A stretch of 64,000 nt of DNA from Pseudonocardia sp. (GTDB lineage Bacteria; Actinomycetota; Actinomycetes; Mycobacteriales; Pseudonocardiaceae). The translations under genes were made by a program, and so were the position numbers. The notes below the pieces were generated by a model that worked only from the letters and a program-made list of their open reading frames with translations, did no database searches and was not told the origin of the DNA. How positions within the stretch are numbered: position 1 is the stretch's first letter; every line of letters starts with the position of its first letter. The stretch lies in contig JAFASX010000049.1 in NCBI GenBank assembly GCA_019244295.1, positions 55,919-119,918 on the forward strand, read 5' to 3'. Below, piece after piece: positions 23,102-63,066 of this stretch.

Positions 23102-23455
23102 TTCCGGATTCCGTAAACCAAAAAGCCCAGACCCCAGACCGCGTCACACTTATCGCGTTTATGGTTAGAGTATTCACCACAGTCGATAATTTTTCCGCGA
23201 ACCCTACCGGTACATGATCTCGAAGGGTCCGAAATTAGAATCATGTCACAGTAAGTCGGCATCCCGATCAGCCACCACACCCGAAAGCGCCGACAGCAAA
23301 TAGAATCCATAATTCCGTACTAAATTTTTCACGAAAGAGTCGTATATAACGAAAGAAACTATTGCTCCGGCAGTCAGGTCACCCAGTTTTTCGGCGCACG
23401 GACCTTTCGGACGCTGTCCCTTCGGGCTCCTCGCCACCACGTGTCTCCCCTGTGG

Positions 23456-23672
23456 CAATGCCGTTTAGTTAAGCATTTGGCCTGGTCAGGACAGATGTAG
23501 ACGCCTTGACCAGGGGTGATGCATGACCAAGCTGATCGCTTCGGGAGCATGCGATCAACGAAACCCCAGGTAGCACCAGTGCGGCACGTGACGCGAGGCT
23601 GCAGATCATACCATCTTCGACACCCAAAACTGCTCCTGACCTGCGGAAACGATCCCTAACTTAACGGCATTG
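23456..23672. mobile_element. MITE copy 1 (217 bp), ~18 bp TIRs, no ORF, 10 bp TSD TCCCCTGTGG
   Basis: Left end CAATGCCGTTTAGTTAAG, right end reverse complement CAATGCCGTTAAGTTAGG; TCCCCTGTGG at 23446-23455 and 23673-23682; related to 56868-57081 in inverted orientation. Confidence 0.85.
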
Positions 23673-23802
23673 TCCCCTGTGGTACTTGAGTACAAGGCTC
23701 AGTGAGGACCCGCGCAATGTCGATACGACGATCGGGTGGACGTCGAGGACAGCCTATTCGGCGGGCAAGCGGTCGCCGACGTGGACGCGCGAATACTCAG
23801 GG

Positions 23803-43149: not shown

Positions 43150-43275
43150 CGGGAAGGCTGACCTCCCGGGCTTTTGTCCCGCCGTGGAACGCATCCCGGC
43201 ATCCGACCGGAACCCGCCTGCACCTCTCGGACCAGGCCCGACCGCGTCGATCGGCGGAACCCTAGGTGCGCCTCA
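43150..43275 (-). promoter_or_regulatory. Guanidine-I (ykkC subtype 1) riboswitch
   Basis: Minus strand: CCTAGGGTTCCG ... CTGGTCCGAGAGG ... ACGGCGGGACAAAAGCCCGGGAGG, the conserved blocks in order, ~50 nt before the ureohydrolase start. Confidence 0.92.
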
Positions 43276-43427
43276 CCCGTTAGTGAGTCAGTTACCAGGA
43301 CAACCTCTGGGTATGGCCAACGCGTTTCGGGGCTGTTGCGGTCACGTCAGTGGTAAGCCGTGCGGCCTCACCAGGCGATTTCCTTCCCGCCCGCCTCCGC
43401 TGGAGCATGCCGCGCGGCGGAGGCCCG

Positions 43428-56157: not shown

Positions 56158-56616
56158 TCACTGGGTCTTTCGGTAGATTAGGTCAAAGTCGGTCTGATAA
56201 TGTTCGCCGTCCTCGGCCTTCTCCCACCGGCCCACGATCGTGGCGCCGCCATCTTCAAACCGTCCAGTGAAACGCTGGGAGAAAGGCTTACCATCCCGCC
56301 AGAGCCTCCACTGGCCATCGCCGATGCTCATCTGGTAAACCCGGCACACGCCTCGATCGTCGGAGTAAAGCTGGAAGTAGGTGCCGTTGGCCGCGTCGCA
56401 ACCCATGATCGAGATTGTGTTCGGCGCCTCGGGCATCTCCACCGTCGAGCGCTGAACGAGGTGGGCGCCAGAGTAGTGCCACTCGATGACTGTGCGCCCC
56501 TGGCCCGGCCACGGCTCGCCGTGGGGCGAGATGGCCCGCACGCTCCACTCCCCGACCAGCGGCTTAAGCCGCGTCAGCGCTTCTTCCGCGTTTGCGATGG
56601 ATGTCACGTTCGTCAT
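56158..56616 (-). CDS. DUF1579-like hypothetical protein
   Basis: LKPLVGEWSVRAISPHGEPWPGQGRTVIEWHYSGAHLVQRSTVEMPEAPNTISIMGCDAANGTYFQLYSDDRGVCRVYQMS. Confidence 0.75.
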   Translation of the reverse strand: MTNVTSIANAEEALTRLKPLVGEWSVRAISPHGEPWPGQGRTVIEWHYSGAHLVQRSTVEMPEAPNTISIMGCDAANGTYFQLYSDDRGVCRVYQMSIGDGQWRLWRDGKPFSQRFTGRFEDGGATIVGRWEKAEDGEHYQTDFDLIYRKTQ

Positions 56617-57345
56617 TCAAACTCCTCTCGGGGAGCTGTCCGAGGCCAAGACTCTGGTCACGCACGGGCGGACGCAAGCCGCTCGGTTCCTCGGCTATGA
56701 AGTTGTGGTCCTTGACGCCGACGACAAGCATGATCATCGTGGTCATCACGCCCAGCGAAGTCGTGCAACGGCTGCTGGCCGATACCTGCGAACTATGCGG
56801 ATCACACGACAGTGTCGAAGTGCACCATGTCCGGCACCTCAGGGATCTGCACACGAAGGGCAGGGCCCAATGTCGCAAGTTAAGGATCGTTTTCGCAGGT
56901 CAAGAGCGGTTTTGGGTGTCGAAGATGGCATGATCCGCAGCCTCACGCCTCGCGCCGCACTAGCGCTATGTGGGGTTTCGTTGATCTCATGCTCCCCAAG
57001 GGATCAGCTTGGTCATGCATCCCCCAGTCAAGGCGTCTACATCTGCCCTGACCAGGCCAAATGCTTAACTAAACGGCATTGGGGCAGGGCCGAACGGCCT
57101 CAATGGGTTCGCATCATGGCCACACGCCGACGCAAAACCCTGATCGTCTGCCGCACCTGCCACGAAAGCACCCACTACCACGGAAGCCAAACGCGGCAAC
57201 GTACATCAAGTCCGGTTTGGAGGGGGCCGTCGGAAAAGGGCCAATCAAAATCGGCACCTCGCTGGCGGCCTACCCTACGGCACGTCCGGTTCGGCGGGCG
57301 GGAAACGGGCCGGGAGCAATCCCGGAACCGCGCCCGTGGCCCACT
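56617..57345 (+). pseudogene. Decayed group II intron: maturase C-terminal/HNH remnant and intron 3' end, split by MITE copy 2
   Basis: LGELSEAKTLVTHGRTQAARFLGYEVVV; VVQRLLADTCELCGSHDSVEVHHVRHLRDLHTKGRA // ERPQWVRIMATRRRKTLIVCRTCHESTHYHGSQTRQRTS; 3' GCACGTCCGGTTCGGCGGGCGGGAAACGGGCCGGGAGCAATCCCGGAACCGCGCCC resembles intron domains V/VI. Confidence 0.8.
56868..57081. mobile_element. MITE copy 2 (214 bp), inverted relative to copy 1, 10 bp TSD GGGCAGGGCC
   Basis: Ends CAATGTCGCAAGTTAAGG / CTTAACTAAACGGCATTG; GGGCAGGGCC at 56858-56867 and 57082-57091. Confidence 0.87.
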
Positions 57346-57353
57346 AGCCCCCG

Positions 57354-58608: not shown

Positions 58609-61600
58609 ATGCCCAATGCGCCCACATCGAAAGCACTAGGCCGGACGTTGGGCCCTGGCCCAACGTCGACAAGGCCGCACCAACGGCCCCCAGGTCTACC
58701 CGGCCCTCGGCAGCCGATGCAGTCATCGCCCGGCATAGATCTCACGGAGATGCCGACCCGCCTGATCCCGCAGGCGGTATACGAGGTCGCCTCGCCGCCA
58801 CCTCCCCGCACCTTGATCGACATTTTCACCGCCACCGCGCGTGCCTACCCGGACGCGCCCGCGCTGGACGATGGCGACGAAGTACTCTCCTACCGCGAGT
58901 GTCAGCGGCGAGTCTCGGCATTGCGCGACGAGTTGCTCGGGGCCGGCATCGCTGTCGGAGACCGGATCGGGGTGCGGATGCCGTCCGGGTGCAACGAGAC
59001 CTACCTCGCGATCCTCGCGGTGCTGGCCAGCGCCGCCGCCTACGTCCCGGTAGACCTTGATGACCCTGAGGAACGAGTTGAGATGGTCTGGCGGGAGGCC
59101 CAGGTTCGCGGGGTGCTGGAGACGGGCGGCAGGCTACGGCTGACCCAGGCCGCGCTGAGACGCGACAACCGGGGTCTGACGGCAAAAGCCCCCATACCGA
59201 CCCCTATGCCGAAACCCAGCGATGACGCCTGGATCATCTTCACCTCCGGCTCCACCGGCCGCCCCAAAGGGGTCGCGATCACCCATCGCTCGGCGGCGGC
59301 CTTCGTCGACGCCGAGGCGCAGCTGTTCGTCCAGGATCGTCCGCTTGGCCCAGGGGACCGGGTGCTCGCCGGCCTTTCGGTGGCTTTCGACGCATCGTGC
59401 GAGGAGATGTGGCTGGCCTGGCGGCACGGCGCATGCCTGGCGCCCGCCGCCCGGTCCCTGGTGCGCGCCGGGGTCGAGTTCGGCTCATGGCTGGTCGAGC
59501 GCAAGGTGACGGTGGTGTCCACCGTGCCCACGCTGGCGGCCTTGTGGCCACAGGACGCGCTGGACCGGGTGCGTCTGCTCATCCTCGGCGGTGAGGCCTG
59601 CCCCGCCGAACTGGCCAAGCGCTTGAGCCGACCGGGCCGGGAAGTGTGGAATACCTACGGGCCCACCGAGACGACCGTGGTGGCCTGCGGGGCGCGTCTT
59701 GACCAAGGCGGCCCGGTCCGCATCGGGTTACCGCTGGCGGGCTGGTCGCTCGCGGTGCTCGACTCCCGGGGTCTACCGGTACATCCCGGCGATGTCGGGG
59801 AGTTGGTCATCGCGGGCGTCGGCACCGGCCGTTATCTCGACCCGGTCAAGGACGCCGAGAAGTTCCGGCCGGTACCGATGCTTGGGTGGGACCGCGCGTA
59901 CCGAAGCGGAGACCTGGTCCGCGCGGACCCGGAGGGTCTGGTTTTCATCGGCCGCGCGGATGACCAGGTCAAGTTGGGCGGCCGGCGGATCGAGCTCGGC
60001 GAAATCGACGCGGCGCTGCTCGCGCTGCCCGAGGTCACCTCGGCGGCGGCGGCGGTGCGGACCACGGCCGGCGGCGGCGATGTGCTGGTCGGCTATCTCG
60101 TGCCGGACACGCCACCAGGGAAAACGTTCGACACCCGAGCCGCGCGCGCCGCCCTCGCCGAGTCGCTTCCCCGAGGGCTCGTTCCCCAGCTGGTGGTGAT
60201 GGATGCGCTGCCGGTTCGTACCTCAGGCAAAGTCGACCGAGCGGCTATGCCGTGGCCGGTCGCCGAATCCGCCGACGCGGCGGCCCAGCAAGGCACACCG
60301 GCTTCAGCTGCCCGCGCCGCCGGAACGGTCGGTTGGCTGGCCGGTGTCTGGCAGGACCTTCTCGGCGTACCCGTTGATCGTGACGCTGACTTCTTCGACC
60401 TCGGCGGGACCAGCTTGGCCACCGCGAAGCTGGTGGCCAAGCTGCGGGAACGCTATCCCGAGGCCTCGGTCGCTGATATCTATCAAAACTCACGCCTGAC
60501 CAAACTGGCCCGCCGGCTGGACGAGCTGGGCGGCGATCAGTCCGGCCGCCGCCCGGTTCACCCGACGCCGGCGTCCACCGGCCCCGTGCAGGCGCTGGTG
60601 CTCGTCGGGTTGTACCTGGCGCGAGGCCTGCAGTGGATGCTCGGTTTGGCTGTGCTCACCGACCTGGCCGCCGTCGCCGCCGGCCAACCGCTGCTGGGGC
60701 CGCCTATCCCCTGGGTTTACCTCGCCGCCGGTTGGCTGTTGCTGATTAGTCCGCCTGGCCGGCTGCTCATTGTGGTCGGGCTTGGGGCTCGCTGGATCTG
60801 TCGAGGGGTGCGGCCAGGCTGTTACCCGCGTGGCGGCTCCGTGCATTTGCGCTTGTGGACGGCGCAACGGCTGGTCACGGCGTTCGGGATGCGCTCGCTC
60901 GCCGGCACAGCGCTTGCCGCCTGGTACGCCCGCCTGCTGGGCTGCCAGGTGGGGGCGCACGTAGACCTGCGGACGGACCCCCCGGTCACCGGGTTGGCCA
61001 GGCTCGATGACGGATGCGCAATCGAAGCCGGGGCCGATCTGTCCGGCTGGTGGCTGGACGGCGATATGGTACACGTGGGTGAGGTGCGGGTGGGCGCGCA
61101 CGCCAGGGTGGGTGCCCGCAGCACCCTCATGCCCGGCGCGGTGGTCGGCGAACGGGCCGAGATCGAAGCCGGGGCGTGCGTGCTCGGTGAGGTGCCAGTC
61201 GACCAGCGATGGAGTGGGGTGCCGGCCCGTCACGTCGGGGCGGTCGGCGAGGGATGGCCAGCACCCAGGCAACGTCGCTTCAGCGGGTGGACCGTGCTGT
61301 ACACGGTGTCGATGATCCTGGTCAGTGTGCTTCCCACGGTGGCTTCGCTGCCGGGGCTAGCTCTGTTCGAGCTCGACCTCGCCCGAGATCATAAACTCGA
61401 ACCGCGGGACGTGCTGGTCATCCCGCCGATAGCCGGGATGCTGGCCGCGCTGTGCTACGCGCTGATCGTGGGCGGGTTGGTACGACTCGCCGGTCTGGGG
61501 CTGCGACCTGGTTTCCATCCCGTTGACAGCCGCGCCGGTTGGGGGGCGTGGCTGGTCGAACGGCTGCTGCAGTCGTCACGGATGGTGTTGTTCCCGATCT

Positions 61601-63066
61601 ATTCCAGTCTCGCCACGCCGGTGTGGTTCCGCATGCTCGGGGCGCGCGTCGGGACCCGCGCCGAGATTTCCACCACCACCGGTCTACCGACGCTGATGCG
61701 TGTGCAGGACGGGGGGTTTCTCGCCGACGACACTCTGGTCGCTCCGTATGAATTGCGCGGTGGCTGGGTGCGGATCGGCCGCTCGGGCGTGGGACGCCGC
61801 GCGTTCGCCGGCAATTCGAGCATCATCGGCCCCGACCGCGCCCTGGGCGATGACTCGCTCATCGCGGTGTTGTCGAGCGCGCCGGACGAGGTGGCGGCGA
61901 ACTCGTCGTGGATCGGACGCCCAGCCCTCGAGCTACCTCGGGTGCCGGATGTCATCGATGCCAGCCGCACCTTCAACCCCCCGGCCCGGCTCGTCGTCGC
62001 CAGAGCCGCGGTCGAGCTGTTGCGGGTGTTGCCATGGGCGATGTCGTCGACGCTCGGCGCGATCGTGTTCAGTGTCCTCGCGCTGATCCGGCTGAAGATC
62101 GGCTGGGTCGCGGCGGCGGTCGCCAGCGGCTTTGTTCTGTTGGCCGCTGGCGTGGTTGCCCTGAGCATCACCACGCTGGCGAAGTGGGTACTAGTCGGCC
62201 GGTTCAAGGTGGGCGAGCACCCACTGTGGAGTTCATTCGTCTGGCGTAACGAGCTCTTCGACGTCTTCTACGAAGAGATGGCCATGCCGTGGTTGGGTAC
62301 CTCGCTGCTCGGCACGCCCATGCTCAACGTGTGGCTGCGGACGCTCGGCGCGCGGATCGGTCGAGGCGTCTGGTGCGAAAGCCACTGGCTACCAGAAACC
62401 GATCTTGTTCGGCTGGATGACGGCGCGACGGTCAACCGGGGATGCGTGCTGCAAACCCATCTGTTCCACGACCGGCTCATGCGCATCGACCACGTGCACC
62501 TCGGCGCCGGCGCGACGCTCGGACCGCACAGCATCCTGCTGCCCGGTGCCGTGATCGGCACCGGCGCCGGTATCGGCGGCCTATCCCTGGTGATGCGTGG
62601 GGAACATGTGCCGCCGAACTCGCGGTGGCTTGGCAACCCGATCGCGGCATGGCCAGAAGAGTTCGCCTTTCCGGATCAGCCCACCGGTCGAGGCCGGCAC
62701 AGCGCTGTGGTGATGTGGCAGAACCAGGAGCCGACCAACCGAGGCGGCTTCGCGCTTGCCGCAGCGGTAGCCGCGCTCGCGGCCGGCGGGCTCGCCGGGC
62801 CCTTCCTGCTCGCCAACTCCTCGAGCCAGTCGCCCGCGCAGAACACGCAACAAGCCCCGCTTTCCCGGCCCTTAGCCGCGCAACCGCCGGGCCCAGCCGC
62901 CACGGCTGCCCCGACTGCGCCACAACCGAAGTCGCTCCAGCCACCAGCCGTCGTACACCGAACACCACCCTCGCCGCCGAAGGTCGCCGACAGCGGCAAA
63001 CCAACGGCCGCGCGCTCGATCAACACCAGCAAAACCAGGGGAGGCAGCGCCCGGCCGTCCCGCTAG
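58609..63066 (+). CDS. Single-module NRPS of the Pls (epsilon-poly-L-lysine synthetase-like) type: A-T-membrane/acyltransferase-like tandem domains
   Basis: IIFTSGSTGRPKGVAITHRSAAAFVDAEAQLF; VWNTYGPTETTVVACGA; DFFDLGGTSLATAKLVAKLRERYPEASVADIYQ; repeated left-handed-beta-helix-like modules (GVPARHVG, SWIGRPALELPR, SRWLGNPIAAW). Start may be ~58720-58750. Confidence 0.87.
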   Translation: MPNAPTSKALGRTLGPGPTSTRPHQRPPGLPGPRQPMQSSPGIDLTEMPTRLIPQAVYEVASPPPPRTLIDIFTATARAYPDAPALDDGDEVLSYRECQRRVSALRDELLGAGIAVGDRIGVRMPSGCNETYLAILAVLASAAAYVPVDLDDPEERVEMVWREAQVRGVLETGGRLRLTQAALRRDNRGLTAKAPIPTPMPKPSDDAWIIFTSGSTGRPKGVAITHRSAAAFVDAEAQLFVQDRPLGPGDRVLAGLSVAFDASCEEMWLAWRHGACLAPAARSLVRAGVEFGSWLVERKVTVVSTVPTLAALWPQDALDRVRLLILGGEACPAELAKRLSRPGREVWNTYGPTETTVVACGARLDQGGPVRIGLPLAGWSLAVLDSRGLPVHPGDVGELVIAGVGTGRYLDPVKDAEKFRPVPMLGWDRAYRSGDLVRADPEGLVFIGRADDQVKLGGRRIELGEIDAALLALPEVTSAAAAVRTTAGGGDVLVGYLVPDTPPGKTFDTRAARAALAESLPRGLVPQLVVMDALPVRTSGKVDRAAMPWPVAESADAAAQQGTPASAARAAGTVGWLAGVWQDLLGVPVDRDADFFDLGGTSLATAKLVAKLRERYPEASVADIYQNSRLTKLARRLDELGGDQSGRRPVHPTPASTGPVQALVLVGLYLARGLQWMLGLAVLTDLAAVAAGQPLLGPPIPWVYLAAGWLLLISPPGRLLIVVGLGARWICRGVRPGCYPRGGSVHLRLWTAQRLVTAFGMRSLAGTALAAWYARLLGCQVGAHVDLRTDPPVTGLARLDDGCAIEAGADLSGWWLDGDMVHVGEVRVGAHARVGARSTLMPGAVVGERAEIEAGACVLGEVPVDQRWSGVPARHVGAVGEGWPAPRQRRFSGWTVLYTVSMILVSVLPTVASLPGLALFELDLARDHKLEPRDVLVIPPIAGMLAALCYALIVGGLVRLAGLGLRPGFHPVDSRAGWGAWLVERLLQSSRMVLFPIYSSLATPVWFRMLGARVGTRAEISTTTGLPTLMRVQDGGFLADDTLVAPYELRGGWVRIGRSGVGRRAFAGNSSIIGPDRALGDDSLIAVLSSAPDEVAANSSWIGRPALELPRVPDVIDASRTFNPPARLVVARAAVELLRVLPWAMSSTLGAIVFSVLALIRLKIGWVAAAVASGFVLLAAGVVALSITTLAKWVLVGRFKVGEHPLWSSFVWRNELFDVFYEEMAMPWLGTSLLGTPMLNVWLRTLGARIGRGVWCESHWLPETDLVRLDDGATVNRGCVLQTHLFHDRLMRIDHVHLGAGATLGPHSILLPGAVIGTGAGIGGLSLVMRGEHVPPNSRWLGNPIAAWPEEFAFPDQPTGRGRHSAVVMWQNQEPTNRGGFALAAAVAALAAGGLAGPFLLANSSSQSPAQNTQQAPLSRPLAAQPPGPAATAAPTAPQPKSLQPPAVVHRTPPSPPKVADSGKPTAARSINTSKTRGGSARPSR

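Follow-up and report, generated by a model that had tools for sequence, protein, structure and literature searches.

A MITE with IS4-type ends in the remains of a group II intron and a putative twintron in Pseudonocardia

What interrupts the HNH-coding remains of a group II intron in a Pseudonocardia genome, where does the interrupting element begin and end, and into what did the intron itself insert? The stretch of DNA analysed here (the window) comprises 64,000 nt of Pseudonocardia sp. (assembly GCA_019244295.1, contig JAFASX010000049.1, positions 55,919-119,918, forward strand), with ~67% G+C by base counts; the assembly is 91% complete and consists of 163 contigs. The nesting of a MITE in intron remains at 56606-57347 is real and confirmed. 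Taken as a whole, the locus is very probably best explained as a three-level nest of decayed elements, in which the MITE belongs to a family that exists mainly as a composite and in which solo copies, probably including the one at this locus, can arise by collapse of that composite. Every layer of the nest (MITE, HNH intron and twintron) is an already known kind of element. The arrangement is informative in that it provides MITE boundaries independent of the element itself, together with the relative order of three insertions.

The MITE at the locus, copy 2 (214 bp, 56868..57081, + strand, 54.7% GC), has IS4-subgroup-like ends, CAATGtCGC-AAGTTAAGG and CAATGCCGTTTAGTTAAG, and lies between two exact copies of GGGCAGGGCC at 56858..56867 and 57082..57091. 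A search of the whole window finds this 10-mer at these two positions only, and an exact 10-mer match by chance at the window composition has a probability of ~3e-6. A first-pass annotation had proposed a 214-bp element between repeats, and the perfect 10-bp duplications, present nowhere else in the window, bear this out. The left end of copy 2 departs from the rest of the family by one substitution and a 1-nt deletion. Copy 1 (217 bp, 23456..23672, - strand) has the ends CAATGCCGTTAAGTTAGG and CAATGCCGTTTAGTTAAG and is likewise bordered by exact repeats, TCCCCTGTGG at 23446..23455 on the left and at 23673..23682 on the right. The copies are 87% identical and lie on opposite strands 33.2 kb apart, as had been reported (opposite orientation, 33 kb). 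The MITE shows no unusual DNA fold (z -0.63).

Deletion of the element plus one repeat joins the flanks into a 70-aa peptide. This peptide matches PF21368 (AI2M/AI1M-like HNH, group II intron proteins) over residues 6-56, junction included (E 1.8e-15), and the LtrA intron protein 5g2x over residues 3-59 (E 6e-7), so that the continuous HNH-type region proposed in the annotation does span the junction. Among plasmid sequences, 576 records match the rejoined peptide and 572 of these cover at least 80% of it uninterrupted in one place; the best match, 66% over residues 1-70, is to a plasmid-borne group II intron protein of Streptomyces antimycoticus. Both checks that the annotation had suggested, alignment of the peptide across the junction and a search for introns lacking the insertion, thus favour it, and neither a related intact frame carrying the intervening sequence nor a failure of the joined peptide to align was encountered. 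At the DNA level, the rejoined window sequence and the S. antimycoticus plasmid intron, which lacks the insert, can be aligned gap-free across 206 bp. Identity is 73.3% at the exact junction, versus 52-59% when the right flank is shifted by -12 to +12. Duplication and empty-site alignment fix the element boundaries. Insert-free intact introns, encoding a 634-aa protein, are also present on viral contigs. The duplication and the insert-free relatives together place the MITE inside an intron-encoded HNH domain, one mobile element within another, as annotated.

Two other accounts of the 214 bp have been weighed. The first takes them as a natural, lineage-specific domain insertion in the intron protein, the repeat being coincidental. 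No supporting point was found for it: with the insert in place the left half of the protein ends in KGRAQCRKLRIVFAGQERFWVSKMA-stop, relatives lack the insert, and the same 214 bp recur at many unrelated places. It was rejected on the strength of 23 matches in the same genome and of the separate duplications found around copies there, and its probability is practically negligible. The second is an assembly artefact at a repeat, for which it can be said that several MITE matches lie at contig ends and that the family evidently breaks contigs elsewhere in the 163-contig assembly. However, copy 2 sits inside a contig of ~120 kb, the sequence on either side of it is unique, and it is at least 5% different from every other copy, leaving an artefact only a very remote chance.

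The host of the MITE is itself a fragment. Its 5'-truncated part (56606..56867, + strand) was identified by blastn and tblastx against an intron of Streptomyces sp. NBC_00841 (L100) and the intact viral-contig introns (L097, L098). Relative to L100, all sequence 5' of the RT thumb region is gone and homology starts at ~56606-56632. A fragment of RT thumb/X, GELSEAKTLVTHGRTQAARFLGYEVVVLDADDKHD, occupies 56632-56745 (+ strand); at 56745/56754 an internal deletion has removed ~465 nt that the Streptomyces intron has, after which the reading frame shifts and the first half of the HNH region continues in the other frame. Beyond the MITE, the second HNH half and the C-terminus of the protein lie at 57092..57201 (+ strand), where the PF21368 match across the junction is accompanied by a gap-free DNA alignment to a Streptomyces plasmid intron (L099). 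The intron 3' end follows at 57202..57278 (+ strand; alignment to L099 and L100, RF00029). It comprises D5 without its 5' strand, the D6 region and the terminus CCTACCCTAC; half of the catalytic D5 has thus been deleted. RF00029 (Intron_gpII) scores 17.6 bits here, below the gathering score of 40, whereas four relatives score 52-64 bits. The intron retains the HNH (En) domain of its protein and lacks both the RT/X domains, which survive just as the short fragment in a different frame, and a catalytic D5/D6 RNA. Since the RT domain and the 5' part are gone, with an internal deletion, a frameshift and half of D5 missing besides, the inner intron is, judged by its sequence, a dead relic with or without the MITE, neither protein nor ribozyme being predicted to work. 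The annotated statement that excision restores the frame holds in that the rejoined flanks give the quoted peptide in one frame, but the restoration is local, the maturase being wrecked otherwise.

The sequence behind the inner intron points to a further level. The 69 bases at 57279..57347 (+ strand), its 3' exon, match sequence directly behind the stop codon of group II intron ORFs (ltrA/maturase) on Rhodococcus and Streptomyces plasmids and correspond to the 3' strand of D5 plus D6 of an outer intron. Identity to D5/D6 of introns with a maturase ORF directly upstream is 75-86% in several records, and RF00029 D5/D6 is called at three of the four matching plasmid loci (E 5e-8 to 4e-6). Alignment with those loci puts the inner intron inside the outer D5, and an identical 3' junction into D5 occurs in three records (L099, L100, L135), all of them Streptomyces plasmids. 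Because the inner intron sits in an outer D5 at a junction shared with these three plasmids, the nest is read as three deep. The outer intron is seen on the 3' side of the inner one and its 5' half is absent from the window, so it is from the 3' side that we infer insertion into D5 of a second group II intron, i.e., a twintron. The 69 bases could instead be D5/D6 of the inner intron itself, duplicated or shuffled, without any second intron; their general resemblance to D5/D6 and the missing outer 5' half would both suit this. However, the inner intron has its own D5/D6, a different sequence located immediately before 57279, the match to D5/D6 of maturase-bearing introns is close, and the junction recurs identically in the three plasmids, all of which makes a shuffled copy improbable. 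Two further introns on Streptomyces plasmids (L136, L137) were first taken as the same nesting and then rejected, as their 3' junction lies at a different point. These are HNH introns that begin directly after another intron's D5-like hairpin, and are possibly further twintrons with another insertion point.

Bacterial twintrons are known and have been described as rare (PMC4649490, PMC4424553). Those of Trichodesmium (PMC4649490), T. elongatus and Methanosarcina (PMC4424553) likewise consist of a group II intron within a group II intron, and Methanosarcina introns home repeatedly into other introns (reviewed in PMC4424553). However, the target of the Trichodesmium twintron is domain 1 (PMC4649490), whereas here it is D5, and unlike the known twintrons the actinobacterial copy is dead and has a MITE as a third layer. 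No description of a D5 target of this kind in actinobacteria was found in the literature searched, which is weak evidence of absence. The recurring D5 junction suggests where HNH-type introns may home in actinobacterial plasmids, which can be checked.

The inserted element has the hallmarks of a MITE: it is short (214 bp), multicopy and devoid of a transposase gene, relatives of the host ORF lack it, and its copies have target duplications and, at both outer ends, the terminal inverted repeats CAATGCCGYNWAGTTAAG (damaged at the left end of copy 2). The 214-bp form is nevertheless the minority form. The commonest arrangement consists of a unit A, a 173-bp spacer and a unit B in direct orientation, ~595 bp in all, in which the inner ends of the units are decayed. 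The single nesting claimed at the outset is therefore borne out but incomplete, in that the outer second intron had been overlooked and the 214-bp element is the lesser form of this composite. Nine copies retain both ends, and exact duplications of 10-11 bp flank seven of them (9/10 and 7/10 positions agree in the other two). Three solo copies have exact duplications of this length. The six composites with both outer ends have duplications outside the pair (four exact at 10-11 bp, one 9/10, one 7/10), and since these sit outside the A/B pair, the composite moved as one element. On contig C100, one composite (L029:2878-3649; duplication 7/10) is located 183 bp inward of an end that is identical to the IS4-type CAATGCCGTTAAGTTAGG.

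A comparable case is TIME-COMP, a Tn3-derived element in which two miniature elements likewise transpose as a unit, with the duplication outside the pair (PMC4133298); one of its two cases has both miniature elements in the same orientation (PMC4133298). The two systems differ in their ends (IS4-type here, Tn3-type in TIME-COMP) and duplications (10 bp versus 5 bp). Unlike TIME-COMP, the composite found here has a 173-bp spacer that contains a palindrome and no gene, and it is accompanied by solo remnants. The palindrome, of at least 58 bp (GCACACGTTGTGTACGCC...GGCGTACACACGGTGTGTGC), was seen in the spacer at L014:1718-1890. It is a separate palindromic repeat family, which occurs outside composites at C32:27646, C83:12685 and 13798, C57:44236, C21:78, C113:8886, C155:10691 and C98:13379.

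The MITE is absent from the 60 relatives tested (36 congeners and 24 others), and the end pattern CAATGCCGNNNAGTTARGGATCGTTT has no exact match in genome contigs or viral contigs and none in plasmids; no closer strain, whether with the site occupied or with it empty, thus came to light. Searches for an empty host site through the neighbouring genes gave a best congeneric match of 47% identity for the left-hand neighbour, whose homologues adjoin the right-hand neighbour gene nowhere beyond this genome, so that no site empty of the introns emerged. Among named genomes, the right-hand neighbour has only distant relatives, the best in a Pseudonocardiales MAG (45%).

How the solo copies relate to the composites can be addressed because units A and B are told apart at 23 alignment sites, 14 of which are internal and were used in a permutation test of a single switch. 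The solo on contig C125 is A-type at all of the first 11 sites and B-type at all of the next 12 (p = 0.0003; 14 internal sites), and its origin as an A/B recombinant, i.e., as a collapsed composite, is well supported by these states. For copy 2 the change of state falls between columns 37 and 49 of the alignment, one exception apart (p = 0.04). Copy 2 has an A-like left end and the B state at 11 of 12 internal diagnostic sites past column 37, and is a probable A/B recombinant and collapsed composite as well. Recombination between the directly repeated units would delete the spacer and one unit's worth of sequence, so that a chimeric solo unit remains, still framed by the original duplications. 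The C125 solo and copy 2 differ in switch point and duplication, which fits separate collapses in place. In copy 1, A and B states are mixed and no switch is seen; it may represent an older single unit.

The A segment of copy 2 is short (two internal diagnostic sites and the damaged terminus), and gene conversion or an ancestral single unit could for this reason also account for it. According to the latter reading, copy 2 would be the original single-unit MITE and composites would have been built later from two such units, which agrees with copy 1 looking like an unswitched ancestral unit, with the few sites behind the switch in copy 2, and with the decayed inner ends of the composites, expected if two once-complete units were combined. 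Against it stand the combination of an A-like left end and a nearly uniform B state in copy 2, the perfect A-to-B chimera on C125, and the finding that, once copy 1 serves as outgroup, derived states of unit A and of unit B are common to the two chimeras. Such an origin of copy 2 is thus rather unlikely, and collapse of a composite is preferred. Solo LTRs of retrotransposons arise in the same manner: recombination between direct repeats leaves one chimeric unit between the original target duplications. The outcome is shared, but the element here is a DNA element with IS4-type ends and not an LTR element. The chimeras suggest a route by which composite MITEs revert to single units; this bears on any reading of MITE copy number and age from genomes. 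A broader, joint proposal, that in this lineage the IS4-type composite regularly collapses in place to solos as a prokaryotic counterpart of solo LTRs among DNA transposons, and that D5 of other group II introns is a recurrent homing target of actinobacterial HNH introns, with intron relics as a landing pad for more mobile DNA, is tentative and falls somewhat short of an even chance.

Elements of the IS4 subgroup have ends of the form -AATR--------WTW and direct repeats 10-13 bp long (De Palmenaer et al. 2008, PMC2266710, Table 1). A regular-expression search recovers this form at both ends of copy 1, both ends of the composite on contig C57 and the right end of copy 2; an indel or one base removes it from the left end of copy 2 (through its deletion) and from an element of Embleya. 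The MITE duplications of 10-11 bp fall within the subgroup range. E. coli IS4 begins with TAATGCCGATCAGTTAAGGATCAG (confirmed beside insG), and AATGCCGxxxAGTTAAGGATC is common to IS4 and the MITE family. Unlike E. coli IS4 and the IS4 subgroup, however, the MITE has no transposase, and the assembly yielded no intact partner sharing its ends. As it encodes no DDE transposase with the YREK motif, its designation as IS4-derived refers to the ends alone. The Embleya element has an IS4-type transposase and perfect CAATGCCGTTTAGCTAAG repeats at its borders. The only transposase gene in the assembly found adjoining an end of this kind is broken: on contig C65 (L028:345-2802), an IS4-type remnant split over two frames terminates at CAATGCCGTTAAGTTAGG. 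Just upstream of this remnant lies an IS5-type transposase gene bounded by a 22-bp inverted repeat (430-451 / 1673-1694). A search of the 91%-complete assembly for an intact transposase with exact MITE ends found none; the closest IS4-type element that is intact, on contig C51 (L043:536-2117), has a long open transposase frame and different ends, CAATGGCCTTGCTTTAAG (CAATGGCCTTGCTTTA), unlike those of the MITE. By its ends, the MITE is thus IS4-derived and, the sole transposase gene found adjoining a matching end being broken, probably no longer mobile in this genome.

These observations are consistent with the following history. A group II intron with an AI2M/LtrA-type HNH maturase would have entered D5 of another group II intron, giving the twintron. 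A MITE of the IS4 subgroup, presumably mobilised in trans by a transposase of that subgroup acting on CAATGCCGNTNAGTTARG ends, then inserted in the HNH-coding part with a 10-bp target duplication, and truncation and deletion in both introns may have preceded or followed its arrival. Elsewhere in the window, a Guanidine-I riboswitch is called at 43161-43276 (- strand, 77 bits), and a 1485-aa open frame at 58609-63066 (+ strand) looks, from its translation, like a peptide synthetase of the adenylation/carrier/acyltransferase type.
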